From: Winogradskyella helgolandensis
GTDB lineage: Bacteria > Bacteroidota > Bacteroidia > Flavobacteriales > Flavobacteriaceae
Reading direction: 5' to 3'
DNA length: 64,000 nt
Assembly: GCF_013404085.1 (NCBI RefSeq)
Contig: NZ_JABFHO010000001.1
Location: forward strand, 4,291,501-4,355,500
Below, one piece after another: positions 35,665 through 63,848 of the stretch. The notes beneath the pieces were generated by a model that saw nothing but the letters and a program-made list of their open reading frames with translations, ran no database searches and was not told where the DNA came from. A program made the position numbers and the translations under genes. Numbering within the stretch: the first letter of the stretch is position 1; every line of letters starts with the position of its first letter.

Positions 35665-36792
35665 ATGCAATTACAAACGAGTATAACATTGAAACACCTA
35701 ATTATTGATCAAAAAAAATGTGTTGGACTTCAATTTAATTCAAGTAAAGTCATACAATCCCTTATTATGACGCTACCTAATATAACTTGGAGTCAAGATT
35801 TATTACTGTATTACTTACCTAATACTAAGAGTAACTTGGATTTGATTTTTAAAACATTTTATGGTGTTGCTTGGGTTAATGGCAATTATTTTTTTTCTGA
35901 TAAAATAATAAATGAAGATAATCCTCAACTAAATTTAGAACGTTATAGAAATAGAAAACCTAAGGATGGTTTTAAACCTTGTCCAGAAAACTATTTATTA
36001 AAACTTGAACTTAAGAGATATTCAGATAATACTGTTCGTAATTATGTGTCTAGTTTTGAGTCTTTTATTAACTATTATTATAATGAAGATCCTATAACGT
36101 TAAATGAAATAGATGTTCGAAAATATTTGCAAAAACTAATACAAGAAGGCAAATCAAACTCTTATGTGAATTTGACCATAAATAGCATTAAGTTCTTTTA
36201 CGAAGTTGTACACGAAATGCCAAATAGATTCTATTCTATTGAACGACCACGAAAAGAAAAGCAACTCCCTGAGGTATTATCTAAAGAAGAAATTATAAAA
36301 ATCATAAATAACACTAACAACGTTAAACATAAGTGCATTGTCGGATTACTCTACTCTTCTGGGCTTCGACGAGCAGAATTGTTAAACCTTAAAATTAACG
36401 ATATAGATAGTAAAAGGATGGTCGTAAAAGTTAATAATGCTAAAGGAAATAAAGACCGTATATCTATATTAAGTCCTAGTATTCTAACGAATTTACGGCA
36501 ATACTATAAGGATTATAGACCAGAACATTACCTTTTTGAAGGTCAAAAAGGAGGACCTTATAGTGCTACAAGTGTTGTGAAAATAATTTCAACAGCTGCA
36601 AAAAAAGCAGGTATTTTAAAAAAAGTTACGCCTCACATGCTTAGACATAGCTTCGCTACACATTTATTGGAAAATGGAACAGACCTTAGACATATCCAAC
36701 TTCTTTTGGGACATAATTCTACTAAAACAACAGAAATATATACACATGTAGCAAATAGATCATTTATGGAAATAAAAGATTTACTATCTTAG
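35665..36792 (+). CDS. Tyrosine recombinase of the integron-like cassette system (non-IntI)
   Basis: The 375-residue protein has an unusual N-terminal extension (about 1-100), a core-binding domain (about 105-190, YSDNTVRNYVSSFESFINYY) and a catalytic domain with R235 (GLRRAE), K263 (GNKDR), H324 and R327 (HMLRH), H350 (LLGH) and Y359 (IYTHV), so it should be active. K to HxxR is 61 residues, against about 106 in IntI1, so the IntI-specific insertion is missing. Its stop is 40 bp before the first cassette and it reads in the cassette direction. Cassette insertion and excision is inferred from position. Confidence 0.88.
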   Translation: MQLQTSITLKHLIIDQKKCVGLQFNSSKVIQSLIMTLPNITWSQDLLLYYLPNTKSNLDLIFKTFYGVAWVNGNYFFSDKIINEDNPQLNLERYRNRKPKDGFKPCPENYLLKLELKRYSDNTVRNYVSSFESFINYYYNEDPITLNEIDVRKYLQKLIQEGKSNSYVNLTINSIKFFYEVVHEMPNRFYSIERPRKEKQLPEVLSKEEIIKIINNTNNVKHKCIVGLLYSSGLRRAELLNLKINDIDSKRMVVKVNNAKGNKDRISILSPSILTNLRQYYKDYRPEHYLFEGQKGGPYSATSVVKIISTAAKKAGILKKVTPHMLRHSFATHLLENGTDLRHIQLLLGHNSTKTTEIYTHVANRSFMEIKDLLS

Positions 36793-36802
36793 TCCTATAA
36801 TG

Positions 36803-36838
36803 TGGATATAAACAATAGTCTATATCCAATTGTTGTAA
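36803..36838 (+). promoter_or_regulatory. Candidate attI-type recombination site
   Basis: It lies 11 bp after the recombinase stop. An inverted repeat TGGATATA/TATATCCA (36803-36810 and 36821-36828) is followed by ATTGTTGTAAG, whose GTTGTAAG at 36832 is the start of the first cassette. It lacks the long attC stem, as attI sites do. Confidence 0.6.
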
Positions 36839-36863
36839 GTAATGCGAAAAACCCAGAAACCGA

Positions 36864-37658
36864 GTGAATAAAACAATATTTGAAATTACCAAAATGGATT
36901 GTCCTTCAGAGGAAAATCTAATCCGAATGAAATTGGACGGAAATTCGAGCATTGCGAATTTGGAGTTTGATATTCCAAATCGAAAATTGACAGTTTTTCA
37001 TAGCGGAGAAATTGACCAAATCGAAAAGTCAGTTATCGAACTGAATTTAGGCGGAAAAAAAATATCGACTGAACAAACCGACCAAACTGAATTTAAAGAA
37101 AACGCAAACCAAAAAAAACTACTTTGGTCTGTTCTTGTCATAAATTTTGCGTTTTTCATAATCGAAATGACAACAGGGATTATCTCAAAATCTATGGGAC
37201 TTGTTGCCGATAGTTTAGATATGCTTGCGGACAGTTTTGTGTACGGAATTAGTTTGTTTGCGGTCGGTGGAACAATAATAAAGAAAAAAAGAATTGCAAA
37301 ACTTGCGGGATATTTTCAAATAGCACTTGCGATTATTGGATTTATAGAAGTTTTAAGAAGATTTTTTGGAGACGAGAAACTTCCCGATTTTTCGACAATG
37401 ATTATCGTTTCGATTTTTGCACTTATAGCAAACGGAATTTGTCTTTACATTTTGCAAAAGTCAAAAAGCAAAGAAGAGGCACATATGAAAGCAAGTATGA
37501 TTTTCACCTCGAATGAAGTAATTATCAATTTGGGAGTAATAATTGCTGGAATTATGGTAAACTGGTTGAGTTCAAGTAAACCAGATTTGATTATTGGAAC
37601 AGTCGTTTTTGTGCTAGTCATTCAAGGAGCTTTACGGATTTTGAAATTAAGTAAGTAG
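36864..37658 (+). CDS. Cation diffusion facilitator (CDF) transporter, first cassette
   Basis: The 264-residue protein starts at a GTG. An N-terminal soluble domain (about 1-75) of the HMA-like fold has TKMDCPSEENLIRM, with a Cys in the metal loop. Five to six membrane helices follow, with the CDF signatures GLVADSLDMLADSFVYG and EAHMKASMIFTSNEV. CDF proteins export Zn, Co or Fe in exchange for protons. Being nearest to the recombinase, it is by integron logic the latest inserted cassette. It starts with GTTGTAAGTA and ends with TACTTACAAC. Confidence 0.85.
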   Translation: MNKTIFEITKMDCPSEENLIRMKLDGNSSIANLEFDIPNRKLTVFHSGEIDQIEKSVIELNLGGKKISTEQTDQTEFKENANQKKLLWSVLVINFAFFIIEMTTGIISKSMGLVADSLDMLADSFVYGISLFAVGGTIIKKKRIAKLAGYFQIALAIIGFIEVLRRFFGDEKLPDFSTMIIVSIFALIANGICLYILQKSKSKEEAHMKASMIFTSNEVIINLGVIIAGIMVNWLSSSKPDLIIGTVVFVLVIQGALRILKLSK

Positions 37659-37669
37659 ATGAAAAAAGC

Positions 37670-37868
37670 ACTACTTACAACAATGTATAAAAAACATAGC
37701 TAGTTCGTGCTAAACCAAAAGTTTGTGCGTGCTTACCAAGACCGCCAAATCTGCGATTTGGCATTAATGAAAAACAAAATGTAAATGCCAAATCGCAGAT
37801 TTGGCTAAGGAATAAACCGAAACTTATCGTATTTTTATACGCTACGTTTCTTATACTAAACGTTGTAG
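37670..37868 (+). repeat. attC-like site B1 (long variant)
   Basis: At about 199 bp this is the longest site. The 5' box CACTACTTACAAC is followed by a TGTATAAAAAACATAGC arm and the 3' box is GTTGTAG. The loop holds GCCAAATCTGCGATTTGGC (37752-37770) and its near mirror GCCAAATCGCAGATTTGGC (37786-37804), which can pair with each other or fold separately. Confidence 0.75.
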
Positions 37869-37890
37869 CACATTTAAGAAAAAAAAACTT

Positions 37891-38421: not shown

Positions 38422-38425
38422 AAAC

Positions 38426-38560
38426 GTGCTACAACACCGTGTATAATTAATTGCTTTTTCGAGCTTACTTACGAAAATCCCTTCGGATTTTTTATGTCGT
38501 GAGTATTTGTTAACTTAGTCGCTTAACCACGCAACTAACCATACACAATCACGTTAGCGC
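38426..38560 (+). repeat. attC-like site B2
   Basis: The 5' box GTGCTACAAC is the exact complement of its cassette start. Left arm GTGTATAATTAATTGC, hairpin GAAAATCC-CTT-CGGATTTTT (imperfect), right arm GCAACTAACCATACAC and 3' box GTTAGCG are present. Confidence 0.88.
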
Positions 38561-38878
38561 ACATTGCTCACTCAGCTCAAAAAAATAATAAACCTTCTCA
38601 AAGTATTTTAAAAATAATTCCTAAAACTTACTCAATTGATTTTTGACAAATCAAAACGCAACTGTTACCTAAGTCTTATTTTACTCTCGAAAACTAAAAT
38701 TAAATAAAAAATTAAACCGACTTCTGACAAAATAATACGCAAAGTTTACGCGCAAATGACTTAACTCTTGCGTTTAAAAAATTCTGACTCTTGCGAAACA
38801 ATACGCAACTGTTGCTTCGGACTTTTCTTTGTTCCTTAAAAAGCATATTGAAATACTCTTGTGAGAAAAACATAACAA
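38554..38878 (+). other. Cassette without an evident gene
   Basis: This complete unit starts GTTAGCGCAC and ends GTGCGCTAAC at 38880. The 325 bp between hold no credible open frame on either strand. Short words recur (ATACGCAA, ACGCAACTGTTGC/ACGCAACTGTTAC). It may encode a small RNA or only spacer DNA. Confidence 0.7.
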
Positions 38879-39017
38879 CGTGCGCTAACATTGTATAAAA
38901 ATAATGCGTAATTTAGTGCCTAATCAAGAGTAAATGCGCGTTTGCATGCATCTGATTTTCCTTCGGAAAATCCTCGCACTCAAACTACGCACTATTCTTA
39001 TACGTAAACGTTGGCAA
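38879..39017 (+). repeat. attC-like site B3 (TTC-loop subtype)
   Basis: The 5' box CGTGCGCTAAC, left arm TTGTATAAAAATAATGCG, hairpin GATTTTCC-TTC-GGAAAATC, right arm CGCACTATTCTTATAC and 3' box GTTGGCA are present. Confidence 0.88.
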
Positions 39018-39021
39018 CAAT

Positions 39022-39750: not shown

Positions 39751-39753
39751 ATA

Positions 39754-39894
39754 CTGTTGCCAACACCGTGTATAATTAATTGCTAGGTTCTAGCCTACTT
39801 GCGAATATTCCTGCGGAATATTCACGGGTTCGTAAAAGTTTGCTAAATTAGTTGCTGAACCACGCAACTAACCATACACAAGACCGTTGTATGC
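39754..39894 (+). repeat. attC-like site B4
   Basis: The 5' box CTGTTGCCAAC pairs with its cassette start GTTGGCAACA. Left arm GTGTATAATTAATTGC, hairpin GAATATTCC-TGC-GGAATATTC, right arm GCAACTAACCATACAC and 3' box GTTGTATG are present. Confidence 0.9.
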
Positions 39895-39907
39895 AATTTG
39901 ACAACCA

Positions 39908-40309: not shown

Positions 40310-40311
40310 AA

Positions 40312-40452
40312 ACTGCATACAACACCGTGTATAATTAATTGCTTCATTGAGCTTACTTGCGAAAATTCCTGCGGAATTTTCACGGGTTCGTAAAAGTTTG
40401 CTAACTTAGTTGCTAAACCACGCAACTAACCATACACAAACACGTTGTAAAC
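40312..40452 (+). repeat. attC-like site B5
   Basis: The 5' box ACTGCATACAAC, standard left arm, hairpin GAAAATTCC-TGC-GGAATTTTC (a stem change matched on both sides), standard right arm and 3' box GTTGTAAAC are present. Confidence 0.9.
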
Positions 40453-41315: not shown

Positions 41316-41317
41316 AA

Positions 41318-41460
41318 ACTGTTTACAACACCGTGTATAATTAATTGCTTGGTTCTTCCCTACTTGCGAATATTCCTTCGGAATATTCACGGGTTCGTAA
41401 AAGTTTGCTAATTTAGTTGCTTAACCACGCAACTAACCATACACAAAACCGTTGGCAGCA
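41318..41460 (+). repeat. attC-like site B6
   Basis: The 5' box ACTGTTTACAAC, standard arms, hairpin GAATATTCC-TTC-GGAATATTC (TTC loop on the main stem) and 3' box GTTGGCAG are present. Confidence 0.9.
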
Positions 41461-41862
41461 ATGCGTGTGCGGCAAAGTCCAACTCTAAATTGGAACTTAT
41501 ACAAATCTAAATTTTGAGAATAAAATAAAATTGGAATTTCAAAACGTTGGAATGAAAATCACAACGCAGGAATTAAGCAGAACGGAAAATTACGGTTGAA
41601 AAAATAGCTACATCGCAATAAAAAAGCCTAGTTACTTTTTCGCTATTTTTTTTTTTGACTATTAAGTAAGTAAAATCAGAAAAAATGGAGTCGGAAATTT
41701 TAATTTCTTGCGGAACTAAATTGGAATAATTATCTAATTCATTAAACACGAGAACTGAAATTTGATAAGTTTCCTAGATATTAAAAATATAGCGCAGGAT
41801 ATACAAGCTGTGTGGAAAATGCGTGTCTGATTAGCAACAACGCAGGATTAAAAAAATAAGCA
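41452..41862 (+). other. Cassette without an evident gene
   Basis: The unit starts GTTGGCAGCA and ends GGCTGCCAAC at 41864. About 410 bp with stops in all frames contain words such as AACGCAGGA twice and GGAATTTCAAAACGTTGGAATG. No gene can be supported; a non-coding RNA or decayed gene is possible. Confidence 0.65.
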
Positions 41863-42004
41863 CGGCTGCCAACACCGTGTATAATTAATTGCTTTGTTCT
41901 TCACTACTTGCGAATATTCCTGCGGAATATTCACAGGTTCGTAAAAGTTTGCTAACTTAATTGCTAAACCACGCAACTAACCATACACAACAACGTTACC
42001 TGTA
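41863..42004 (+). repeat. attC-like site B7
   Basis: The 5' box CGGCTGCCAAC, standard left arm, hairpin GAATATTCC-TGC-GGAATATTC, right arm and 3' box GTTACCTG are present. Confidence 0.9.
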
Positions 42005-42718: not shown

Positions 42719-42860
42719 GCCTACAGGTAACACCGTATATAATTTATTGCTAACTTTTTGCTTACTTGCGAAAGTCCTCGCAGACTTTCTTGGTCGGTAA
42801 TTATTTACTAAATTAGTTGCTTTAAACACGCAACAAACCATATACAACAACGTTAGCAAC
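42719..42860 (+). repeat. attC-like site B8 (GTATATAATTTATTG subtype)
   Basis: The 5' box CCTACAGGTAAC matches the cassette start GTTACCTGTA. The loop hairpin is GAAAGTCC-TCGC-AGACTTTC with one mismatch. The right arm GCAACAAACCATATAC and 3' box GTTAGCAA are present. Confidence 0.88.
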
Positions 42861-43390: not shown

Positions 43391-43530
43391 ACTGTTGCTA
43401 ACACCGTGTATATTTTATTGCTTTCTTTTAGCCAATTTACGAAAATCCTCGCGGATTTTCTATTCAGTATTTATTTGCTAAATTTACGCTAAACCAACGC
43501 AACAAAGCATACACAAACACGTTAGCATTA
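43391..43530 (+). repeat. attC-like site B9
   Basis: The 5' box CTGTTGCTAAC, left arm GTGTATATTTTATTGC, hairpin GAAAATCC-TCGC-GGATTTTC, right arm GCAACAAAGCATACAC and 3' box GTTAGCAT are present. Arm changes (TATTTTATTG and CAACAAAGCATA) are partly compensated. Confidence 0.88.
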
Positions 43531-44634: not shown

Positions 44635-44774
44635 TAATGCTAACAACGTGTATAATTAATTGCTTTGGTCGTTGCCTACTTGGAAAATTCCTTCGGAATT
44701 TTCTCGCGTTCGTTTTTGTTTACTAAATTAGTTGCTTAAACACGCAACTAACCATACACAAAACCGTTAGCCAT
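44635..44774 (+). repeat. attC-like site B10
   Basis: The 5' box TAATGCTAAC, left arm AACGTGTATAATTAATTGC, hairpin AAAATTCC-TTC-GGAATTTT, right arm GCAACTAACCATACAC and 3' box GTTAGCCA are present. Confidence 0.9.
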
Positions 44775-45448: not shown

Positions 45449-45587
45449 TATGGCTAACACCGTGTATAATTAATTGCTTCGTTTCTGATCATCTGGAATA
45501 TTCCTGCGGAATATTCTCAGGTTCGTGGGTTTTTGTTAACTTAGTTGCTCAACCACGCAACTAACCATACACATCAACGTTGTAACA
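45449..45587 (+). repeat. attC-like site B11
   Basis: The 5' box TATGGCTAAC, standard left arm, hairpin GAATATTCC-TGC-GGAATATTC, right arm GCAACTAACCATACAC and 3' box GTTGTAAC are present. Confidence 0.9.
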
Positions 45588-46276: not shown

Positions 46277-46416
46277 GTGTTACAACACCGTGTATAATTA
46301 ATTGCTTGGTTCTAGCCTACTTGCGAATATTCCTGCGGAATATTCACGGGTTCGTAAATGTTTATTAACTTAGTTGCTTAACCACGCAACTAACCATACA
46401 CAAAACCGTTGGGCAA
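46277..46416 (+). repeat. attC-like site B12
   Basis: The 5' box GTGTTACAAC, standard arms, hairpin GAATATTCC-TGC-GGAATATTC and 3' box GTTGGGCA are present. Confidence 0.9.
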
Positions 46417-46425: not shown

Positions 46426-46947
46426 ATGACCGAAATAAAATTTTACAAATCAAAAAAAAGAGCAATTAGTATGATGCTATTATGCTCAATTTTTGTGCTA
46501 CTAGGAATTTGGCTACTTCCGAAAGAACCGCTTATTGGATGGAGTTGTATCGGATTTTTTGGACTTGCATATCCACTCGGAATTTATAATCTGATTGATA
46601 AAAAACCAATGATTATTATAAATGAGGTCGGAATATATGACCGTAGCGCGAATCGTGACTTTATAAATTGGGAATTAATACACGATGCTTATCCGATTAA
46701 CATTAGTGGACAAAAATTCATTTGTTTGATAATTGATGAAAAATTTAAACCTTCTAGAAAAAAAGGAGTGATTTATAAAAGTGCTGTAAAACTGAACGAA
46801 GCAATTGGAGCGCAAGAATTGAATATACATTTAGGTCAAATTAAAAAAATTGATGAAATCAAGCTGACTGAATTTATACTTGAAATGTCAAAAGCTGATA
46901 AAAACACTAAAACGGAATTAATAAAAACGTTGCCCAACACCGTATAA
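46426..46947 (+). CDS. STM3941-family-like membrane protein, cassette-borne
   Basis: The 173-residue protein begins MTEIKFYKSKKRAISMMLLC, with two membrane helices (about 13-32 and 38-56). A domain follows with IIINEVGIYDRSANRDFINWELI, resembling the STM3941/YcxB-like group of PH-fold membrane proteins. The ATG at 46426 is preferred over a TTG at 46420. Its last residues (TLPNTV) are encoded by the cassette 3' box and the repeat, whose GTATAA supplies the stop. Confidence 0.65.
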   Translation: MTEIKFYKSKKRAISMMLLCSIFVLLGIWLLPKEPLIGWSCIGFFGLAYPLGIYNLIDKKPMIIINEVGIYDRSANRDFINWELIHDAYPINISGQKFICLIIDEKFKPSRKKGVIYKSAVKLNEAIGAQELNIHLGQIKKIDEIKLTEFILEMSKADKNTKTELIKTLPNTV

Positions 46948-47067
46948 AAATAATTGCGGTTTAGTGCTTAATCAAAGGTCGTTGCGTGTTTGTAACGTCT
47001 GATTTTCCTTCGGAAAATCCTCGCATACAAACCCGCAACTATTCTTATACATAAACGTTGGCATTCA
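46929..47067 (+). repeat. attC-like site B13 (TTC-loop subtype)
   Basis: The 5' box GTTGCCCAAC, left arm GTATAAAAATAATTGCGG, hairpin GATTTTCC-TTC-GGAAAATC, right arm CCGCAACTATTCTTATAC and 3' box GTTGGCAT are present. It is nearly identical to site B32 at 63030. Confidence 0.9.
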
Positions 47068-47107
47068 TTGACAAAAAAACTCAAAATAAACGAATTAGGA
47101 AAAAATA

Positions 47108-47410
47108 ATGAAAAGATTAATAATTTTACTCATACTTTCTATTTCAATTTGTGCTGGAGAAATATTATTATTGATTGACTTATTTCCTCAAACAGGTTTA
47201 GCAAGAATGCTTTATGTTCCATTCTATATAATTCTAATGATTTCATTAACAATTATACTTTTTAGGAAAATAAAAAACAAAGGAAAAAATGAGCAAATAA
47301 TATATTGGATAATTTTTCATTTTTTAATTTTTAACTTTATTATTTGGTCTTGGCCACAAGATGGAAGAAGAGTTAACGTAATTGGAGAATTTTATAGTAA
47401 ATTTTCATAA
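47108..47410 (+). CDS. Small membrane protein of the duplicated cassette, copy 1
   Basis: The 100-residue protein has three membrane helices (about 3-22, 32-52 and 64-83) and a C-terminal WPQDGRRVNVIGEFYSKFS. It differs from the copy at 52668 by one residue (Met34 here, Ile there). The ATG is preceded by GGAAAAAATA. No family recognised. About 200 bp of untranslated tail follow before the repeat. Confidence 0.6.
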   Translation: MKRLIILLILSISICAGEILLLIDLFPQTGLARMLYVPFYIILMISLTIILFRKIKNKGKNEQIIYWIIFHFLIFNFIIWSWPQDGRRVNVIGEFYSKFS

Positions 47411-47617
47411 ATAAAACGTTTGAATTTAAGCAAACTATGAAATCTACAACAAAGGAATTATTATTCAAAATTTGAATTTAACAAGTTGTGGAATTGCTCA
47501 CTCAACCGGAATTGAAAAAGTTTGCGGAATAAATCGCTGAATGAATTCACTCAAATGCTGAAAAAACAAAAAAAGAATTAACCAGAATAAGAATAAGTCG
47601 GAATAAAAAAACAACGA

Positions 47618-47755
47618 AATGCCAACACCATATATAATTTATTGCTGGCTTTTTGCCTACTTACGAAAGTCCTCTCGGACTTTCTTGGTTGGTAATTATT
47701 TACTAAATTAGGTGCTTAAACCACGCAACAAATCATATATAAACACGTTACCCAA
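47618..47755 (+). repeat. attC-like site B14 (duplicated cassette, copy 1)
   Basis: The 5' box AATGCCAAC, left arm ATATATAATTTATTGC, hairpin GAAAGTCC-TCTC-GGACTTTC, right arm GCAACAAATCATATAT and 3' box GTTACCCA are present. The sequence up to the crossover is the same as at site B21. Confidence 0.9.
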
Positions 47756-47770: not shown

Positions 47771-48493
47771 ATGATAAACTTAAATAGTGATGAATTTAAA
47801 ATTAATCATTGGGGAATATTATACTATTATGATGATGACCTTGACAATCTGCTAATAGCGGAAAGGAAACTTATAGAAAATTCCGAAAAATATAGTAAAA
47901 CATTAATTAAAGAGTTTCAAGCTAAAGTTGAAAATGATGCTGAATTACAAGCTAAACCAAAAAATTATGAAGAAGGCTCAATGCAAGCTCAATACTATGG
48001 ACATTACTATGGTGATACTGAAAAGATAAATAATCAAATATTACAGAATTATAGAAAAGCGTCATTGCTTTCTATTTTTTCTATTTTGGAAGGACAATTA
48101 AAGCTTATTTCAAAATTAGTTGAAGATGAATTTGACTTCAGCGTAAAAACAAAACATATTACTGGAGGTGATTATATTCATAAATATTGGTTATATCTGA
48201 CAAAGGTTTTTGAATTAAATCCAGCGAATGTTCAAGACGAATATAATCTGATAAGACAACATAAATACGTTCGGAATAAAATTGCTCACAGCAATTCCGA
48301 AATTGATGAAAATAAACTGCAATTTGTTGAACAGACAAATGGACTATCAGTAAGAAAATTCGGAAATGACAATATTCTTGAAATAAGTAATGATGAGTAT
48401 GTGACTGAAATTTTGAATTTAATTAAAACTTTTTTTAATAAATTAATTAAAGATGTTGATAGAAGATATGGTGAAATAAAAAACGTTGGGTAA
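47771..48493 (+). CDS. HEPN-motif protein, cassette-borne
   Basis: The 240-residue helical soluble protein has YVRNKIAHSNSEIDE (R168 to H173), the RN-x3-H motif of HEPN ribonucleases, set at the end of a helix-rich region (about 90-180). HEPN proteins are frequent RNA-cleaving toxins and defence effectors. No antitoxin gene is present in the cassette. The ATG at 47771 is preferred over a TTG at 47759. The stop TAA lies inside the cassette 3' box GTTGGGTAAC. Confidence 0.68.
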   Translation: MINLNSDEFKINHWGILYYYDDDLDNLLIAERKLIENSEKYSKTLIKEFQAKVENDAELQAKPKNYEEGSMQAQYYGHYYGDTEKINNQILQNYRKASLLSIFSILEGQLKLISKLVEDEFDFSVKTKHITGGDYIHKYWLYLTKVFELNPANVQDEYNLIRQHKYVRNKIAHSNSEIDENKLQFVEQTNGLSVRKFGNDNILEISNDEYVTEILNLIKTFFNKLIKDVDRRYGEIKNVG

Positions 48494-48624
48494 CACCGTG
48501 TATAATTAATTGCTAGGTTCTTGCCTACTTGCGAAAATTCCTGCGGAATCTTCACAGGTTCGTAAAAGTTTACTAATTTAGTTGCTTAACCACGCAACTA
48601 ACCATACACAAAACCGTTGCCCAC
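48485..48624 (+). repeat. attC-like site B15
   Basis: The 5' box GTTGGGTAAC contains the stop codon of the preceding gene. Standard arms, an imperfect hairpin (AAAATTCC-TGC-GGAATCTT) and 3' box GTTGCCCA are present. Confidence 0.88.
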
Positions 48625-49473: not shown

Positions 49474-49614
49474 CTGTGGGCAACACCGTGTATAATTAAT
49501 TGCTTTGTTCTTCCCTACTTGCGAAAATTCCTGCGGAATTTTCACGGGTTCGTGAAAGTTTGCTAACTTAGTTGCTTAACCACGCAACTAACCATACACA
49601 AAACCGTTGTGCGT
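49474..49614 (+). repeat. attC-like site B16
   Basis: The 5' box CTGTGGGCAAC, standard arms, hairpin GAAAATTCC-TGC-GGAATTTTC and 3' box GTTGTGCG are present. Confidence 0.9.
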
Positions 49615-50300: not shown

Positions 50301-50437
50301 ACGCACAACACCGTATATAAAAAATTGCTGGTGTTATACTAAAACAAAGGTCGTTGCACGTTTGCTACATCTGATTTTCCTTCGGAAAATCCTCGAACGC
50401 AAACACGCAACTTTCCATATACAAACACGTTGTGCGT
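50301..50437 (+). repeat. attC-like site B17 (TTC-loop subtype)
   Basis: The 5' box ACGCACAAC, left arm GTATATAAAAAATTGC, hairpin GATTTTCC-TTC-GGAAAATC, right arm GCAACTTTCCATATAC and 3' box GTTGTGCG are present. It combines TTC-loop features with a GTATAT arm. Confidence 0.87.
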
Positions 50438-50899: not shown

Positions 50900-51038
50900 C
50901 TACGCACAACACCGTATAAAAATAATTGCGGTTTAGTGCTTAAACAAAGGCAATTGCGTGTTTGCCTGCATCTGATTTTCCTTCGGAAAATCCTCGCATA
51001 CAAACCCGCAACTATTCTTATACATCAACGTTGGCAAA
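50900..51038 (+). repeat. attC-like site B18 (TTC-loop subtype)
   Basis: The 5' box CTACGCACAAC matches the cassette start GTTGTGCGTA. Left arm GTATAAAAATAATTGCGG, hairpin GATTTTCC-TTC-GGAAAATC and 3' box GTTGGCAA are present. Confidence 0.9.
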
Positions 51039-51548: not shown

Positions 51549-51688
51549 GATTTGCCAACACCGTGTATAATTAATTGCTTCATTGAGCTTACTTGCGAAT
51601 ATTCCTGCGGAATATTCACGGGTTCGTAAAAGTTTGCTAACTTAGTTGCTTAACCACGCAACTAACCATACACAAACACGTTGGCAAT
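51549..51688 (+). repeat. attC-like site B19
   Basis: The 5' box GATTTGCCAAC, standard arms, hairpin GAATATTCC-TGC-GGAATATTC and 3' box GTTGGCAA are present. Confidence 0.9.
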
Positions 51689-52485: not shown

Positions 52486-52626
52486 TATTGCCAACACCGT
52501 GTATAATTAATTGCTTGGTTCTAGCCTACTTGCGAATATTCCTGCGGAATATTCACGGGTTCGTTAAAGTTTGCTAACTTAGTTGCTTAACCACGCAACT
52601 AACCATACACAATCACGTTGGCATTC
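52486..52626 (+). repeat. attC-like site B20
   Basis: The 5' box TATTGCCAAC, standard arms, hairpin GAATATTCC-TGC-GGAATATTC and 3' box GTTGGCAT are present. The following cassette repeats the one at 47057. Confidence 0.9.
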
Positions 52627-52667
52627 ATTGACAAAAAAACTCAAAATAAACGAATTAGGAAAAAATA

Positions 52668-52970
52668 ATGAAAAGATTAATAATTTTACTCATACTTTCT
52701 ATTTCAATTTGTGCTGGAGAAATATTATTATTGATTGACTTATTTCCTCAAACAGGTTTAGCAAGAATACTTTATGTTCCATTCTATATAATTCTAATGA
52801 TTTCATTAACAATTATACTTTTTAGGAAAATAAAAAACAAAGGAAAAAATGAGCAAATAATATATTGGATAATTTTTCATTTTTTAATTTTTAACTTTAT
52901 TATTTGGTCTTGGCCACAAGATGGAAGAAGAGTTAACGTAATTGGAGAATTTTATAGTAAATTTTCATAA
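52668..52970 (+). CDS. Small membrane protein of the duplicated cassette, copy 2
   Basis: The 100-residue protein is identical to that at 47108 except Ile34 for Met34. The cassette (52617-53307) matches the first copy from crossover to crossover, including tail and repeat, with three base differences seen (52768, and two in the tail near 52981 and 53009). Whole-unit duplication without flanking sequence fits excision and reinsertion by site-specific recombination. Confidence 0.62.
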   Translation: MKRLIILLILSISICAGEILLLIDLFPQTGLARILYVPFYIILMISLTIILFRKIKNKGKNEQIIYWIIFHFLIFNFIIWSWPQDGRRVNVIGEFYSKFS

Positions 52971-53177
52971 ATAAAACGTTTTAATTTAAGCAAACTATGA
53001 AATCTATAACAAAGGAATTATTATTCAAAATTTGAATTTAACAAGTTGTGGAATTGCTCACTCAACCGGAATTGAAAAAGTTTGCGGAATAAATCGCTGA
53101 ATGAATTCACTCAAATGCTGAAAAAACAAAAAAAGAATTAACCAGAATAAGAATAAGTCGGAATAAAAAAACAACGA

Positions 53178-53316
53178 AATGCCAACACCATATATAATTT
53201 ATTGCTGGCTTTTTGCCTACTTACGAAAGTCCTCTCGGACTTTCTTGGTTGGTAATTATTTACTAAATTAGGTGCTTAAACCACGCAACAAATCATATAT
53301 AAACACGTTGGCATTC
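53178..53316 (+). repeat. attC-like site B21 (duplicated cassette, copy 2)
   Basis: It is the same as site B14 up to the crossover (right arm GCAACAAATCATATAT). The 3' box is GTTGGCAT, belonging to the next cassette. Confidence 0.9.
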
Positions 53317-53857: not shown

Positions 53858-53981
53858 AATGCCAACAACGTGTATAATTAATTGCTTTATTCTTCTCTAC
53901 TTGCGAATATTCCTGCGGAATATTCACGGGTTCGTAAAAGTTTGCTAACTTAGTTGCTGAACCACGCAACTAACCATACAC
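53858..53981 (+). repeat. attC-like site B22, interrupted by IS110 copy 2
   Basis: The 5' box AATGCCAAC, standard left arm, hairpin GAATATTCC-TGC-GGAATATTC and right arm GCAACTAACCATACAC are followed directly by the IS. The remainder AAACACGTTGTAAGC lies at 55206-55220. The insertion point equals that in site 2. Confidence 0.88.
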
Positions 53982-54019
53982 GTATTCCAAGATCAAATCC
54001 TAGTAATATTTAGTTTTTT

Positions 54020-55012
54020 TTAGGCTGCATATTGCTGAAGAACGACATAAGGTGTTCCTCTTTTTACTACGGCAAACGCTCTAGCTATCAACTTATTTCT
54101 AACATTATTTATGGCCAGCATTTTATCCTTCCCCTCTGCTAATTTTCTATTGTAATATAATCGTAATTCACTATCATGTTGTATTGCTGAAACACTTGCC
54201 ATACTTAGCAAACTCTTCATTTTTCTATCACCTAAATAATGGCATTGCTTTCTTTTGTAAATACTAGTGCCTGAGCGATGTTCAAATGGTGCTGTACCAC
54301 AATAACTAGAAAAGGCACGCCAACTAGCAAAACGTGTAAAGTTACCTGTGTGGTAGATAAGCTGACAGGCAACAACTAATCCAATACCTTTAAGACTTGT
54401 TAGCAATTCATAATTCTTACTCATCAGTGCATCAGAAGATATAATCTCTTTTATACGTTCCTTTATCGATTTAACTTGCTTTTCTTGGTAATCAATACTA
54501 CGTTTTAAGACAATACAACCTGTGTCTGTTGTGGGACTAGATAAAAGTACTTTCATCTCTTTTAATGTCCCTTTTAAGCCTGCATTGTTTCTAACCAGTA
54601 GATCCCGTAACGCTAGCAATCTACCTAATTCTAAATGAGACTTACTCTTAACTTGACTTGGTTTTAATTCTTCCCGGTAAAGCCAAGCGTAACGAGCTAT
54701 TAATGCCGCATCTAATTTGTCAGTCTTTTCTTTAACGATACCTGAACTACGCTTAATCTTTAATGGACTTTCTTCTACATAAATAATCTTTCGACTATCT
54801 AGATACAGCGCTAATTTTAACGAATAATAGCCTGTATTCTCAAAACAGTAAAAAACATCAACTCCTTTTGTAGTTTTTAAAACCCATTTTAATAAGCTTT
54901 TATATCCTACAATATCGTTAACAAACTCCCTGTGTACTTGAGATTGGTAACAATAAGCATCTAGTGTTTTTTTTGAAACATCGATTCCAACGACTTCTTT
55001 GTAATTTTTCAT
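54020..55012 (-). CDS. IS110-family transposase, copy 2
   Basis: The 330-residue protein is identical to the transposase at 1409-2401: DEDD domain with GIDVSKKTLDAY and a C-terminal Transposase_20 domain with SSYCGTAPFEHRSGTS. It is intact. Identity over the whole length implies a recent transposition or ongoing gene conversion between the two arrays. Confidence 0.95.
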   Translation of the reverse strand: MKNYKEVVGIDVSKKTLDAYCYQSQVHREFVNDIVGYKSLLKWVLKTTKGVDVFYCFENTGYYSLKLALYLDSRKIIYVEESPLKIKRSSGIVKEKTDKLDAALIARYAWLYREELKPSQVKSKSHLELGRLLALRDLLVRNNAGLKGTLKEMKVLLSSPTTDTGCIVLKRSIDYQEKQVKSIKERIKEIISSDALMSKNYELLTSLKGIGLVVACQLIYHTGNFTRFASWRAFSSYCGTAPFEHRSGTSIYKRKQCHYLGDRKMKSLLSMASVSAIQHDSELRLYYNRKLAEGKDKMLAINNVRNKLIARAFAVVKRGTPYVVLQQYAA

Positions 55013-55205
55013 ATTTTTACAATTAAAGTTTATAATTATGTTGCTTTAACTACTTCCTTTATCGGGAGTTAATACTCCTGGTATTCCAAATGGTTCTTGG
55101 CAACTTTATAGAAAGAGAGGACTCGTACGTGTAAGGGATCACTAATCTAAAACACGTTATAGTTCTCCTCTTTTTCTATATAAAGATATTTATTACAAAC
55201 TAAAG
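55013..55205 (-). ncRNA. Candidate bridge (seek) RNA region of the IS110 element, copy 2
   Basis: The same 193-bp non-coding end as in copy 1. GGTATTCCAA at 55080-55089 resembles the element end, and TAAAACACGTTAT at 55148-55160 resembles the target AAACACGTTG at 55206. Inference only. Confidence 0.5.
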
Positions 55206-55248
55206 AAACACGTTGTAAGCAATTAACCAAAAGCACCTCACAAGCTGA

Positions 55249-56244: not shown

Positions 56245-56386
56245 CTGCTTACAACACCGTGTATAATTAATTGCTAGGTTTTTGCCTACTTGCGAATATT
56301 CCTGCGGAATATTCACAGGTTCGTAAAAGTTTGCTAATTTAGTTGCTTAACCACGCAACTAACCATACACAATCACGTTGGCAGTA
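56245..56386 (+). repeat. attC-like site B23
   Basis: The 5' box CTGCTTACAAC, standard arms, hairpin GAATATTCC-TGC-GGAATATTC and 3' box GTTGGCAG are present. Confidence 0.9.
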
Positions 56387-56402: not shown

Positions 56403-57038
56403 ATGAAAAAAATTACATTTCTACTATTATTAGTAATTACATATTCTTGTAAACAAGAGAATGAACCATATTCGATGTATGGATTGTTAAATGAGGAATT
56501 TGTTTATTCAAGTGAAATGCTTAAAGTTCAAATTGCGAAAAATCTAACAAATGACAATCTGATTAATAATGAATCTGCAAAAACTTATGACAGTTTGACA
56601 AGCGAATACTTAAAGTATTTGGACAACACCTACTCTGAATTAATTAATCATCCGAAAATAGAAAAAGATAGAAGTTACGATGGAGAATTTTCTAAAAAAG
56701 AATATATAAACGATTTATTTTTTACTGGAGACGAATACAATGAAAAAGGAACTGAATTCATTTCTAAATTGGAAAAATATCGAACTGAAATTTTAAAGTT
56801 GATTAAAGATAAAAATTTAGCTAAACGAGTAAATGTAACATTAAACACAATGTACATTCAAAATCGTGAAGGAACGAAAATTAAATATCTGAATTACATA
56901 TACCAAGATATGCCCTTAATTAGCGTGTTGACACATATGAAAAATAAAGAAAAGTCGATTCTGGAATTTGAAAATGACTTTCTGAAAAACATACAACTGA
57001 AAAAACAAAAACCTACTGCCAACACCGTGTATAATTAA
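56403..57038 (+). CDS. Putative lipoprotein, cassette-borne
   Basis: The 211-residue protein starts MKKITFLLLLVITYSC, a lipoprotein signal with Cys16. The mature part is helical and charged with no recognised domain. Its C-terminus (PTANTVYN) is encoded by the 3' box TACTGCCAAC and the left arm, whose AATTAA supplies the stop. Confidence 0.62.
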   Translation: MKKITFLLLLVITYSCKQENEPYSMYGLLNEEFVYSSEMLKVQIAKNLTNDNLINNESAKTYDSLTSEYLKYLDNTYSELINHPKIEKDRSYDGEFSKKEYINDLFFTGDEYNEKGTEFISKLEKYRTEILKLIKDKNLAKRVNVTLNTMYIQNREGTKIKYLNYIYQDMPLISVLTHMKNKEKSILEFENDFLKNIQLKKQKPTANTVYN

Positions 57039-57154
57039 TTGCTATGGCAAGTGCTTATTTGGAAAATTCCTTCGGAATTTTCTCTGGCAAGTTTTTGTTT
57101 ACTAAATTAGTTGCTTAACCACGCAACTAACCATACACAACAACGTTGGCAACA
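57014..57154 (+). repeat. attC-like site B24
   Basis: The 5' box TACTGCCAAC lies inside the preceding gene. Standard left arm, hairpin AAAATTCC-TTC-GGAATTTT, right arm GCAACTAACCATACAC and 3' box GTTGGCAA are present. Confidence 0.9.
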
Positions 57155-57885: not shown

Positions 57886-58022
57886 AGTTGCCAACACCGT
57901 ATATAATTTATTGCTAGTTCTAGCCTACTTACGAAAATCCTCGCGGATTTTCTATTCGGTTTTTATTTGCTAAATTACGTGCTAAACCACGCAACAAACC
58001 ATATACAAACACGTTAACTACA
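57886..58022 (+). repeat. attC-like site B25 (GTATATAATTTATTG subtype)
   Basis: The 5' box AGTTGCCAAC, hairpin GAAAATCC-TCGC-GGATTTTC, right arm GCAACAAACCATATAC and 3' box GTTAACTA are present. Confidence 0.88.
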
Positions 58023-58444
58023 AGCTGTCTCGCCAACTAACATTTTTCTTAAATTGAAACATCGTAAGCCCTAATTTGATTAATTACTCAGATGGATAAT
58101 TAAATCTGAAAAGCATTACGCATTGCTTACGGTTTGACTTCATAAACCAAGAAAAATAGAATTTTAAAAGATAATTTAAAGAAACCAATTTTGAGCTTAC
58201 TCTACTCTATTTGAAATTAAAACAACTAAGATAATTTTAGATTAAAAAGATCAATAAAGTAAATCAAGATTGAAAAGCTTGTGTTTATCGTTACGGTTGA
58301 ACTGTACGCAGGAAAACCAATCTGAGCTAAACTGGATTCGCTAAACGGAGTAATACGCTTAAACCATTGCTAAAATTAGAATTCCTAAATTATATTTATT
58401 GGAAAATTTAAAAATCTGAAATCTGTATAAATAGAAAAAAAGCC
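58014..58444 (+). other. Cassette without an evident gene
   Basis: The unit starts GTTAACTAC and ends GTAGTTAAC at 58446. The 430 bp carry no supportable open frame. Two similar segments (GAAAAGCATTACGCATTGCTTACGG near 58109 and GAAAAGCTTGTGTTTATCGTTACGG near 58272, quoted in part) may be a repeated motif or RNA element. Confidence 0.6.
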
Positions 58445-58583
58445 GGTAGTTAACACCGTGTATATTTAATTGCTTGGTTTCTGCTTATCTGGAATATTCC
58501 TTCGGAATATTCTCAGGTTCGTAAAAGTTTACTAATTTAGTTGCCTAGCCACGCAACTAAGCATACACAAACACGTTAGCAGT
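58445..58583 (+). repeat. attC-like site B26
   Basis: The 5' box GGTAGTTAAC, left arm GTGTATATTTAATTGC, hairpin GAATATTCC-TTC-GGAATATTC, right arm GCAACTAAGCATACAC and 3' box GTTAGCAG are present. Confidence 0.88.
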
Positions 58584-58618
58584 TATATAAAAAAAACTCA
58601 GAGAATTCAAGAATAGAT

Positions 58619-59164
58619 ATGGATAAATTCAATATTAAAATTTTATCTCACGAATGGATATCGAATGAAAATACTGAAACCGATTTATGCTCTCACGGAA
58701 AACTTGAATTAACAATTGGAGAAGAAATAATATTAAATGAATCTGATGGAGATTGGACAATCAGTACATCTGTATTACAATTATTGAGATGTATTGAGCC
58801 AAATCCTGATACTGAAACTGATTTTAATCCAATTATGTGTTGTGGAATGTTATTAATGTTAGGTTGTCCAATTGGACTGTATTTTGATTTAAAACATAAA
58901 AACGGAAAAATAGTAATTAGAAATATCAAAAAACAGTATGGAACAAATGATAATGAACACGTTTTGTATCCTAAAATCGTTGCGGAAATTAATACGTCTG
59001 ACTTTGCAATAAATATTTTGAATTTAGCAAAAGAAGTTAAATCATTTTTCAATAACGAGCCGAAAAAAAATCTTGATGATGATATGGATAAAGAACTTTG
59101 GGTTGAATTTTGGAATGAATTTAATGAGTTATATAAAAACGGAATTGAAAAATACAACTGCTAA
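58619..59164 (+). CDS. Hypothetical protein, cassette-borne
   Basis: The 181-residue acidic soluble protein has a central hydrophobic Cys-rich patch (NPIMCCGMLLMLGCPIGLYFDL) and an amphipathic C-terminus (ELWVEFWNEFNELYKNGIE). It resembles small immunity-like proteins in composition but no family is recognised. The stop TAA lies within its 3' box AACTGCTAAC. Confidence 0.58.
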   Translation: MDKFNIKILSHEWISNENTETDLCSHGKLELTIGEEIILNESDGDWTISTSVLQLLRCIEPNPDTETDFNPIMCCGMLLMLGCPIGLYFDLKHKNGKIVIRNIKKQYGTNDNEHVLYPKIVAEINTSDFAINILNLAKEVKSFFNNEPKKNLDDDMDKELWVEFWNEFNELYKNGIEKYNC

Positions 59165-59294
59165 CACCGTGTATAATTAATTGCTTCATTGAGCTTACTT
59201 GCGAATATTCCTGCGGAATATTCACGGGTTCGTAAATGTTTATTAACTTAGTTGCTTAACCACGCAACTAACCATACACAACAACGTTGTAAGC
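59156..59294 (+). repeat. attC-like site B27
   Basis: The 5' box AACTGCTAAC, standard arms, hairpin GAATATTCC-TGC-GGAATATTC and 3' box GTTGTAAG are present. Confidence 0.9.
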
Positions 59295-59312
59295 AATTTA
59301 AAACAAGCACAT

Positions 59313-59834: not shown

Positions 59835-59837
59835 AAA

Positions 59838-59867
59838 CTGCTTACAACACGTTGTATAATTAATTGA
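59838..59867 (+). repeat. Broken attC-like site B28
   Basis: The 5' box CTGCTTACAAC is followed by ACGTTGTATAATTAATTG, a damaged left arm, and the sequence then changes to GAGACTGAATTTCC directly before the next gene. Hairpin, right arm and 3' box are missing. Confidence 0.7.
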
Positions 59868-59880
59868 GACTGAATTTCCT

Positions 59881-60240: not shown

Positions 60241-60246
60241 AAAAAA

Positions 60247-60384
60247 CAGCTTACAACAACGTGTATATTTTATTGCTAGTTCTAGACTGCTTACGAAAAT
60301 CCTCGCGGATTTTCTATTCGATTTTTATTTGCTAACTTAGTTGCTCAAACACGCAACAAAGCATACACAAAACCGTTGTACAAC
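60247..60384 (+). repeat. attC-like site B29
   Basis: The 5' box CAGCTTACAAC, left arm GTGTATATTTTATTGC, hairpin GAAAATCC-TCGC-GGATTTTC, right arm GCAACAAAGCATACAC and 3' box GTTGTACA are present. It is similar to B9. Confidence 0.88.
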
Positions 60385-60387
60385 ATT

Positions 60388-60885: not shown

Positions 60886-60892
60886 AAAAAAC

Positions 60893-61032
60893 GTTGTACA
60901 ACACCGTGTATAATTAATTGCTTTTTTAGGCTTACTTACGAAAATTCCTGCGGAATTTTCTCTGGCAAGTAAAAGTTTGCTAACTTAGTTGCTAAACCAC
61001 GCAACTAACCATACACAAACACGTTGTGCATA
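60893..61032 (+). repeat. attC-like site B30
   Basis: The 5' box GTTGTACAAC (palindromic), standard arms, hairpin GAAAATTCC-TGC-GGAATTTTC and 3' box GTTGTGCA are present. Confidence 0.9.
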
Positions 61033-61041
61033 ATTAAAAAA

Positions 61042-61737: not shown

Positions 61738-61742
61738 ATAAC

Positions 61743-61883
61743 TATGCACAACACCGTGTATAATTAATTGCTTTGGCAAGTGCTTATTTGGAAAATTCCT
61801 TCGGAATTTTCTCTGGTTCGTTTTTGTTTACTAATTTAGTTGCTTAACCACGCAACTAACCATACACAACAACGTTAGGTGTA
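61743..61883 (+). repeat. attC-like site B31
   Basis: The 5' box TATGCACAAC, standard left arm, hairpin AAAATTCC-TTC-GGAATTTT, right arm GCAACTAACCATACAC and 3' box GTTAGGTG are present. Confidence 0.9.
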
Positions 61884-61902
61884 ATTTGAACAAACAACAG
61901 AA

Positions 61903-63024
61903 ATGAAAGGAAAACTAATCCAATTTTTAAGAACGAAAGATTTTAAATTTATCGAAGAAATTGGACAAGGTGGGACTGGAAGAACAGTTTTACTTGAAGA
62001 CGAAATTATTAACGAACGTTTTGTTTGCAAGAAATACTCACCTTTTTATGATGAACACAAAAAATTATTCTTTACTAATTTTAAAGATGAAATAAAACTT
62101 CTTCATCTTTTATATCATCAAAATATCGTTAGAGTATTCAATTACTATTTATACCCTGAAGAATATACGGGTTACATCTTAATGGAATTTGTAAAAGGAC
62201 AAAATATTGCTTCTTTCTTAAAAGATAATCCTGACAAAATAAATGATATATTTAAACAGACTGTAGATGGCTTTATACATTTAGAGTCTGCTAAAATTTT
62301 ACATCGTGACATCAGACCTGATAATATTTTAGTTTCAGAAACAGGAATAGTTAAGATTATAGATTTTGGATTTAGTAAAAAAATAGATTTTGAATCGGAC
62401 TTTGATAAAAGTATATCATTAAATTGGCGATATACACCACCGAATGACTTTAATGAAAAGATTTATGATTTTAGAACTGAGCTATATTTTGTAGGTAAAC
62501 TTTTCGAAGAGATTATAATCGAAAATGACTTTCAAAATTTTGCATACAAGGAACTTCTAAAAAATATGGTAGATATTGATTATAATAGTCGTGTATCATC
62601 ATTTTTTGATTTGAATAGAAGAATAATAACAGAATTAACACCGGAAATTATATTTAGTAAAGAGGAGAAAAAAATCTATCAACTCTTCGCTGATGATTTA
62701 CAGAGTATCTATTCTAATATTGACCTTGATTCTGAATATGTATCTGATGTTCAAAAAATAATAAAAGGAATTCAGGAAGTTCATAAAAATTCGATTTTAG
62801 AAGAGAATCTACAAAGCCAAAGTGCGCTTGCAAGATGTTTTATAAAGGGAAATTTTAGATATTATCCGCATAGAGAAATTAAAGTAGATACTGTATATGA
62901 TTTCTCGAAGTTTATTAGTTCTGCTTCGAAAGAAAGACAAAAAGTTATTTTAAACAATTTATGGCAAAGATTAGATAATATTGATCGATTTGACCCAAAT
63001 GAACAAGATGATTTACCATTTTAA
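61903..63024 (+). CDS. Ser/Thr protein kinase, cassette-borne
   Basis: The 373-residue protein is a eukaryote-like kinase: glycine loop GQGGTGRTVLL (21-31), ATP-site Lys in VCKKY (43/44), catalytic HRDIRPDN (134-141, with Arg in place of the usual Lys) and DFG at 154-156. The C-terminal part (about 235-373) is an unrecognised helical region. It has no membrane segment. Kinases of this kind in defence islands phosphorylate host proteins during phage infection, which is one possible role; no partner is in the cassette. Confidence 0.85.
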   Translation: MKGKLIQFLRTKDFKFIEEIGQGGTGRTVLLEDEIINERFVCKKYSPFYDEHKKLFFTNFKDEIKLLHLLYHQNIVRVFNYYLYPEEYTGYILMEFVKGQNIASFLKDNPDKINDIFKQTVDGFIHLESAKILHRDIRPDNILVSETGIVKIIDFGFSKKIDFESDFDKSISLNWRYTPPNDFNEKIYDFRTELYFVGKLFEEIIIENDFQNFAYKELLKNMVDIDYNSRVSSFFDLNRRIITELTPEIIFSKEEKKIYQLFADDLQSIYSNIDLDSEYVSDVQKIIKGIQEVHKNSILEENLQSQSALARCFIKGNFRYYPHREIKVDTVYDFSKFISSASKERQKVILNNLWQRLDNIDRFDPNEQDDLPF

Positions 63025-63029
63025 AAAAC

Positions 63030-63167
63030 TACACCTAACACCGTATAAAAATAATTGCGGTTTAGTGCTTAATCAAAGGTCGTTGCGTGTTTGTAACGTC
63101 TGATTTTCCTTCGGAAAATCCTCGCATACAAACCCGCAACTATTCTTATACATAAACGTTAGAGCAA
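63030..63167 (+). repeat. attC-like site B32 (TTC-loop subtype)
   Basis: The 5' box TACACCTAAC, left arm GTATAAAAATAATTGCGG, hairpin GATTTTCC-TTC-GGAAAATC, right arm CCGCAACTATTCTTATAC and 3' box GTTAGAGC are present. Confidence 0.9.
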
Positions 63168-63175
63168 ATTTGAGA

Positions 63176-63703
63176 ATGAAACCAGCTTATAGAAAAACAT
63201 TAGTAATTATTCCAATAATTTTAATACTTGGTTATATAGTTTTTGACTGGAATAAGGTTGGTGGTAAAAGTTTCGAAGAAGCTGGAACGGATTTCACAAA
63301 ATCATTTAACGCTGAAAGGAAAAAAATGAACCTACCAATAATTCCTGACAATTGGAAGAATTTAAGTCCATTGGAATATAAAGTACAGACTTGGGAAAAT
63401 CCTGATTTATCTTTGCCTTCTCATTCCGAAAAAACAGTTATTGCGACCTATGAAACTGCGGAATTTCAAAGTGAAGTCGATAGATATAATTTAAAGAAAA
63501 TAGGAGGAAAATATTATCAGGTAGTTATTGAGTTTTCGAAAGCTGAAAACCAATGGTACTGTACTCTGAGAGAAACTAGTCCTCACCCAATTGATGTAAA
63601 TCGAAAATTACTAAGAGATGCTGGGAATCTGATTTCGGAATTGACGCTTGAACAGGCAACAGATACTCTAAGAAAGTATGGAATCGAAAGATTAAATTAT
63701 TAA
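63176..63703 (+). CDS. Hypothetical membrane-anchored protein, cassette-borne
   Basis: The 175-residue protein has one N-terminal membrane helix (about 7-24, LVIIPIILILGYIVF) and a domain of about 140 residues outside the membrane, ending in a helical LEQATDTLRKYGIERLNY. No family recognised. The ATG 63176 is preferred over a TTG at 63170. The cassette runs from GTTAGAGCAA to TTGCTCTAAC. Confidence 0.58.
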   Translation: MKPAYRKTLVIIPIILILGYIVFDWNKVGGKSFEEAGTDFTKSFNAERKKMNLPIIPDNWKNLSPLEYKVQTWENPDLSLPSHSEKTVIATYETAEFQSEVDRYNLKKIGGKYYQVVIEFSKAENQWYCTLRETSPHPIDVNRKLLRDAGNLISELTLEQATDTLRKYGIERLNY

Positions 63704-63708
63704 AAAAC

Positions 63709-63848
63709 TTGCTCTAACACCGTGTATAATTAATTGCTTTGGTCACTGCCGACTTACGAACATTCCTGCGGAATATTCTATCTGTGATTTATTTGCTAAA
63801 TTAGGTGCTTAAACACGCAACTAACCATACACAATCACGTTGGCAGCA
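63709..63848 (+). repeat. attC-like site B33
   Basis: The 5' box TTGCTCTAAC, standard left arm, an imperfect hairpin (GAACATTCC-TGC-GGAATATTC), right arm GCAACTAACCATACAC and 3' box GTTGGCAG are present. The next cassette is entered at once by an insertion sequence. Confidence 0.88.

Follow-up and report, generated by a model that had tools for sequence, protein, structure and literature searches.

An Integron-Like Cassette Array beside a Tyrosine Recombinase without the I2 Insertion in Winogradskyella helgolandensis

Introduction

How might gene cassettes be collected in the manner of an integron by a recombinase that lacks an insertion characteristic of integron integrases? This question is raised by a stretch of 64,000 nucleotides (nt) from the genome of Winogradskyella helgolandensis (Flavobacteriaceae, Bacteroidota), hereafter the window, in which the gene of a tyrosine recombinase at 35665–36792 is followed by a long row of short cassettes. 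The literature on integrons, available to us in excerpts, treats an additional domain as the defining mark of the integrase IntI (PMC9668308) and holds that the I2 insertion confers single-strand recombination in IntI (PMC7790495). Integrons of the IntI kind are known from Bacteroidota (PMC8618304, PMC2426708); in the excerpts, the sole new complete integron that IntegronFinder 2.0 named in Bacteroidetes is that of Salinibacter ruber M1 (PMC9024848), and a Tenacibaculum genome was declared integron-free after an IntegronFinder search (PMC10013915). No description of a system like that of the window was found in the accessible parts of the open-licence PubMed Central (PMC) literature, preprints excluded. 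Our reading, which we hold to be very probable, is that the window contains an array of integron type whose cassettes are captured, excised and shuffled by the adjoining I2-less tyrosine recombinase, and we refer to such systems as Bacteroidota integrons with an I2-less integrase.

A Recombinase without I2

The proposed cassette integrase (35665–36792, + strand) is an open reading frame (ORF) of 375 residues with profile matches to tyrosine recombinases, just as the original prediction had described it. Against the IntI profile TIGR02249 it scores 193.4 bits, below the curated cut-off of 265, and the match is interrupted at positions 182–241. In the alignment, 23 residues stand at the I2 position compared with 65 in IntI, and the earlier claim that the insertion is missing is thereby borne out; across the alignment the number is 23–28 in all 69 Bacteroidota rows and 65 in nine IntI rows, and the row IntI_Vch_2a3v, whose sequence was used without its middle, shows 2. 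The distance from the catalytic K to H is 64 in this recombinase and 106 in IntI1; a value of 101 in one relative (G130) was a motif mis-assignment, and the alignment gives 23–28 residues at the I2 position there. The XerA family NF040815, the description of which reads “site-specific tyrosine recombinase/integron integrase,” gives 239.5 bits, over its curated cut-off of 220. Six residues are invariant in 26 aligned rows (R235, K260, H324, R327, H350, and Y359), and we take them to have catalytic roles. The locus L038, whose recombinase frame contains stops, was left out of the protein alignments.

A profile search of the own genome found no IntI over the cut-off; a canonical intI beside the arrays, which would have spoken against the original prediction, is thus not seen in this genome, and relatives were not searched for intI. 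The genome has one near-full-length recombinase of the window kind; other tyrosine recombinases are present, two of which are 36–37% identical to it.

The attI Site

Behind the recombinase gene lies attI (36804–36834, + strand), a palindrome GGATATA..TATATCC followed by AATT|GTT; relatives have it conserved downstream of their recombinase genes. Its palindrome begins at 36804, separated from the stop codon by 11 nt, exactly where the original prediction had placed a candidate attI, and the GTT that opens the first cassette begins at 36832. A related stretch stands behind the recombinase in all 34 loci compared, least clearly in L034; the triplet at the joint is GTT in 32 of them, GTN in one (L033), and TTT in one (L040), and no two of the 34 first cassettes are alike.

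The stretch is directly 3' of the recombinase gene in the window and in 28 further aligned loci. An inverted repeat whose right arm ends 1–7 nt before GTT is seen in 27 of these 29 regions, the best repeat being located elsewhere in L016 and L036, and about five of the 29 repeats, taken alone, are within reach of shuffles. The left arm occurs in 22 different forms in the 29 regions, so the two arms vary together. By this comparative evidence the locus has an attI beside its integrase as the insertion point, as integrons do. Three more copies of attI occur in other arrays of the genome (L045:614, L048(-):1202, and L050(-):2213), each with GTT and other cassettes behind it, and no recombinase was found in the stretches searched around these solo copies.

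attC Sites and Arrays

The attC sites were located with a covariance model, R1, built from 32 of them. A mixture of attC subtypes is probably why R1 retains no more than 13 base pairs; its counts are lower bounds, taken from at most 150 scored candidates in the own genome, 17 per genome in the family survey, and 23 in the phylum run. In the main array it finds 32 attC between 37679 and 63841, one to each cassette and every one on the + strand, close to the roughly 33 consecutive cassettes with attC-like repeats claimed before; a degenerate attC near 59846 is left unscored. The first site is a long variant (37679–37864, 47.1 bits). Two sites, 46936–47059 and 63037–63160, are of a second subtype. 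The others lie at 40321–40446, 45456–45581, 57893–58015, 38433–38555, 38887–39012, 39762–39888, 41327–41453, 41871–41997, 42729–42854, 43400–43523, 44642–44768, 46284–46410, 47624–47749 (the attC of the first copy of a duplicated cassette), 48492–48618, 49482–49608, 50307–50431, 50908–51032, 51557–51682, 52493–52619, 53184–53309, 53864–53986 (the left part of a site split by an IS110-family element), 56253–56379, 57021–57147, 58452–58577, 59163–59288, 60255–60377, 60900–61025, 61750–61876, and 63716–63841, after which the array proceeds towards the contig end.

A second array without recombinase occupies positions 1–7300 of the window, and R1 finds five attC in it, also on the + strand, at 273–398, 1253–1375 (split by another IS110-family copy), 3229–3355, 3968–4092, and 6596–6682, the last of which is shortened. 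The contig that holds the window (C1) ends at 4356360, about 1 kb past the last attC of the window, and the first base of contig C2 lies within an attC; the main array is therefore probably longer than the window and continues on C2, whose first 60 kb carry 47 attC. The whole genome has at least 149 attC, and a 22-nt core with up to three mismatches gives 157 genome matches as opposed to 0 for the reversed pattern, a number well outside what chance would give.

The two IS110-family copies (1370–2590 and approximately 53980–55206) are 100% identical over 1244 nt and interrupt two attC at one and the same point, and it looks as if the element targets attC in the way of IS1111-attC elements. Among the matches listed, attC on C1 are on the + strand at 3.59–4.36 Mb and on the - strand at 0.37–2.79 Mb, with an exception at 4.133 Mb, and dnaA is at 3.517 Mb; the orientation of attC seems to be tied to replication, though the part from 0.37 to 1.05 Mb may not fit.

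Cassette Ends and Folding

Each cassette starts with GTT followed by seven variable nucleotides (N7) and finishes with N7 followed by AAC, and within a given cassette either end is the reverse complement of the other. Of 256 end positions compared in the window, 205 match, as against 92 after permutation (standard deviation 8; best of 20000 permutations 134), a count made on 32 rows including two mis-parsed ones, of which one spans the gap between the arrays and one is off by one base. Outside the window GTT and AAC ends are found in 70 of 71 cassettes between consecutive sites, and in these 70 the match is 472 of 490 variable positions against 185 permuted (standard deviation 13; best of 10000, 232); when an end is paired with the next cassette, as in a linear attC, only 180 of 483 positions match. 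The complementarity is thus private to each cassette, as is characteristic of cassettes that are circular and closed at GTT: a linear repeat would have no reason to keep it, and a circular cassette has one because its two ends, once joined, make up the foot of a hairpin. GTT junctions and complementary ends within the cassette, both of them features of integrons, are accordingly present.

These observations bear on whether the repeats might be dispersed non-coding repeats, such as miniature elements, lying between genes by chance. The bodies of attC do recur at many genomic places, as such elements would, but the private complementarity of GTT+N7, the conserved attI, and the GTT junctions would all be left unexplained, and we find this hardly credible.

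Past the stem, on the side away from GTT, there is one position with A/C on the top strand and a T-G wobble on the bottom strand, and on the attC side follow a 3-nt bulge, the conserved L stem, and a terminal hairpin. In folding predictions the bottom strand is stabler than the top strand at all 34 linear sites, all 29 circularized ones, and all 22 sites of nine distant loci; z-scores of the linear folds against dinucleotide shuffles (12 of the 34 sites) range from -0.6 to -4.2, with a median of -2.4. A bottom-strand attC hairpin like that of integrons is therefore predicted.

In the mechanism that we propose, the single attC of a circular cassette would fold on the bottom strand into one hairpin, with the private 10-bp stem (GTT+N7 with N7+AAC) as its base and the bulge, L stem, and terminal hairpin above it. 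Protomers of the recombinase would bind this hairpin and also the attI palindrome downstream of the gene that encodes them, and strand exchange would take place at GTT. Cassettes would thus enter at attI, so that the newest stand first. The catalyst would be the recombinase of the window, and folding and end complementarity suggest that its substrate is a folded single strand.

Alternatively, the enzyme could recombine attC in double-stranded form, as Xer and Cre do with their sites, with the hairpins serving something else. The element to which single-strand recombination is ascribed in IntI (PMC7790495, in the excerpt available) is absent here, and the attI palindrome is of the kind seen in dimer sites, both of which would suit this explanation; yet private complementarity of the ends is needed for a hairpin and not for a double-stranded core site, and the bottom strand is the stabler one in every site folded, the 22 distant ones included. 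We regard double-stranded use as decidedly unlikely and keep to recombination of a folded strand.

With attI, attC, private complementarity, and GTT junctions beside a recombinase without I2, the sequence evidence upholds the original prediction of a cassette system that resembles an integron and has a recombinase other than IntI.

Movement and Content of the Cassettes

The first cassette body (36832–37681, + strand) carries a cation-efflux (CDF) gene and stands at attI here, and its counterparts in Gelidibacter and Xanthomarina (91% identity in both) are mid-array, behind an attC. The records TNO010 and TNO006 of Tenacibaculum finnmarkense share 96.4% identity along 8.5 kb that end no more than 6 nt from the GTT of attI, beyond which there is no match of 150 nt. 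The same is seen in five of eight pairs of relatives, a count whose total includes two pairs with ends that were not read (L095/L099 and L120/L121): homology stops within 6 nt of the attI GTT and the cassettes then differ. The other four such pairs are L029/L030, L022/L023, L022/L039, and L011/L019, some with non-collinear matches beyond; L012 and L014 diverge inside attI, where L012 has extra bases. Cassette content is thus variable between otherwise similar loci, which contradicts the constancy that would have spoken against the original prediction, and cassettes appear to have moved between species and between attI and attC.

Within the genome, a cassette body at 58013–58454 (+ strand) is 98.9% identical to the cassette behind a solo attI in another array. 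A duplicated cassette is present at 47057–47749 and 52617–53309 (both + strand, with the attC of the first copy included), the second copy standing behind a different attC subtype; the bodies are 99.5% identical, and the identity starts and stops at ACGTT.

The cargo was said to lie on the + strand in every cassette, which is true of most of them; no ORF of 60 residues or more is found on that strand in 38553–38889 and 41451–41873. The latter is 97% identical in W. psychrotolerans and would represent either selected non-coding cargo or a recent transfer. A Pfam scan of 29 cassette ORFs, the duplicated one excepted, gave nothing at 0.01 for 19 of them and a match over the cut-off for eight: Cation_efflux, Abi_C, PLDc_2, DUF695/RraB, GNAT, GldM_1st, SUFU, and Pkinase. 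In a PADLOC comparison of ten proteins, the Abi_C protein matches AbiJ, the kinase matches mad6 and PD-T4-6, and the PLD protein matches PDC-S69 and DrmC more weakly.

Distribution among Relatives

One genome collection yielded 34 relatives, mostly Flavobacteriaceae or Flavobacteriales; six of their contigs break off no more than 200 bp past the gene, an effect that repeats would have. Across 38 near loci, 102 of 108 attC matches are downstream of the recombinase on the same strand, and 24 of the 28 near loci whose sequence extends 1.1 kb or more past the gene hold an attC match. The six upstream matches (L008:2861–7501, L009:905–2717, and L013:9–132) belong to other nearby arrays.

A survey of 199 genomes of the family of the window, taken as Flavobacteriaceae, with thresholds of 1e-5 for attC and 1e-60 for the recombinase, gave attC in 158 genomes and the recombinase in 125; both occur in 114, the recombinase only in 11, attC only in 44, and neither in 30 (Fisher p 1.7e-7). 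In Bacteroidota as a whole, 111 of 395 genomes match the recombinase at 1e-60 or better; five genomes including the own one score more than 580 bits, and the remaining matches reach 374 at most. R1, which was applied within Bacteroidota, matches 22 of 148 phylum genomes (9 of 15 in the own family and 13 of 133 others) and is thus not indiscriminate, and the attC of some relatives with arrays escape it. A genus of the own family, g2 (for example G142 and G057), has recombinase-led arrays with no R1 match, and this is another attC type within the same family.

Chains of at least two cassettes follow the gene in 26 of 58 loci from the Bacteroidota list. Among the 24 distant loci that have 7 kb or more to either side of the gene, chains of two or more are downstream in nine and chains of three or more in six, and neither is upstream in any. 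The original prediction, which spoke of Flavobacteriaceae, gave too narrow a range: arrays stand behind recombinases of this kind elsewhere in the phylum too, in further families, orders, and classes.

It is also conceivable that the neighboring recombinase is a passenger and that the cassettes are moved in trans by a different enzyme, either XerC/XerD or one of phage origin. Arrays of this genome without adjoining recombinase, some of them headed by or holding a solo attI, would agree with this, as would the 44 surveyed genomes that have attC and lack a recombinase of the window type at the threshold used; but attI is attached directly to the recombinase gene in the window and the 28 aligned loci, arrays are downstream of the gene and not upstream, and one integrase acting in trans would itself account for the solo arrays, as with the clusters of attC sites lacking an integrase (CALINs) of known integrons. 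A passenger role is in our view very improbable, and the adjoining recombinase remains the proposed integrase.

With a strict detector, 71 Bacteroidota loci whose recombinase has a clear N-terminal domain (described below) were divided into 32 with arrays, 12 with weak signs, 22 with none, and five that are too short; three of the 22 do have attC matches in the near-locus scan. Nine Bacteroidota loci without a clear N-terminal domain include four with arrays. Of 82 viral and alphaproteobacterial loci, 35 were scanned (33 of 80 viral ones and two alphaproteobacterial ones), and 33 of the 35 lack the domain; 28 of these show no array, three weak signs, one is short, and one (viral L184), flagged as an array, has a chain of two. 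A Persicobacter plasmid has a relative at 44% and no array was detected there. At two alphaproteobacterial XerA-like loci, L228 and L229, an IS91-family transposase gene is directly behind the recombinase in both.

Homologs regularly lacking arrays, which would have spoken against the original prediction, are partly seen: near orthologs usually have arrays, and loci of the wider set less regularly. The array-less 22 of the 71 wider loci and the mostly array-less phage relatives weigh against our reading, and so does, at least in its simple form, the finding of near-identical cassette bodies with different attC bodies, two cases of which are cross-species.

Phylogeny and the N-Terminal Domain

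Could the enzyme be an ordinary IntI that has secondarily lost I2? A tree with few outgroups makes the Bacteroidota set sister to IntI (support of 91 in the Shimodaira–Hasegawa-like approximate likelihood ratio test), as such a loss would predict. The addition of 29 viral and two alphaproteobacterial rows yields a clade (99) in which IntI is joined by four viral rows and from which the Bacteroidota set is excluded, being intermixed with phage rows; deep support is weak. This arrangement places I2 on the IntI branch and, together with the uniformly short I2 position in all 69 Bacteroidota rows against 65 residues in nine IntI rows, makes secondary loss unlikely. An approximately unbiased (AU) test did not reject a single clade for 62 Bacteroidota rows (p 0.155); an AU test of groups A and B (p 0.0003) was set aside as ill-posed, nested rows having been omitted.

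The array-bearing Bacteroidota recombinases have in common an N-terminal domain, in the window approximately residues 1–98 (35665–35958, + strand), with a predicted order of beta-beta-alpha-beta-beta-alpha-beta. The domain is conserved, and its predicted fold weakly resembles the damage-recognition domain of XPB and the HARP DNA-junction domain of SMARCAL1; structural scores are weak and sequence kinship is undetectable, and the likeness serves as a lead only. Membership of the HARP family by sequence was dropped, since Pfam does not list it for 26 members at E up to 10, and a PDB profile search with the N-terminal alignment gave chance matches only. The domain may take over the role of I2 in gripping the bulged hairpin. 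We put forward, tentatively and at a shade below an even chance, that Bacteroidota hold a second, phylum-wide class of integrons in which I2-less integrases recombine folded single-stranded attC by means of an N-terminal domain of the XPB/HARP kind, either as a separate solution or as a form that preceded I2.

Relation to Known Systems

By its sequence the system would function like an integron, yet it is not an IntI integron, because it lacks the protein feature that defines the IntI family. It shares with chromosomal integrons of the IntI kind, such as the Vibrio superintegron, an attI by the integrase gene, one-way arrays, and satellite arrays without integrase, and also the bottom-strand fold of attC, exchange at GTT, and complementary ends within a cassette (for IntI integrons in part after PMC9668308). 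It differs in that the integrase has no I2, scores below the IntI cut-off, and has an extra N-terminal domain; the integrase gene and the cassettes are oriented alike, and attI lies 3' of that gene; and the private stem has 10 bp and is not confined to GTTRRRY.

Phage and alphaproteobacterial XerA-like recombinases (Bradyrhizobium, Blastomonas), up to 49% identical in the catalytic part, mostly have no I2 either, and they are mostly without the N-terminal domain and without arrays. Xer enzymes resolve dimers at a single double-stranded dif site. Unlike XerA and other Xer-type recombinases (NF040815; PDB 5hxy and 4a8e), the recombinase of the window is accompanied by dozens of attC, an attI, and cassettes.

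Natural I2-less enzymes adjoining arrays of folded attC make the claimed requirement for I2 directly testable. It is probable that a system of gene sharing has gone unnoticed in much of Bacteroidota, and a large shared gene pool, with some anti-phage-like cargo, may have been missed with it.

Other Features of the Window

Upstream of the recombinase, a stretch at 35037–35090 resembles by eye part of a tRNA-Met gene; ARAGORN calls no tRNA there. The stretch may mark an old integration site. In a separate scan with Rfam gathering thresholds, a tRNA was the sole match. In the second array, ORFs near 2674–3216 resemble by eye a ParD/ParE pair.

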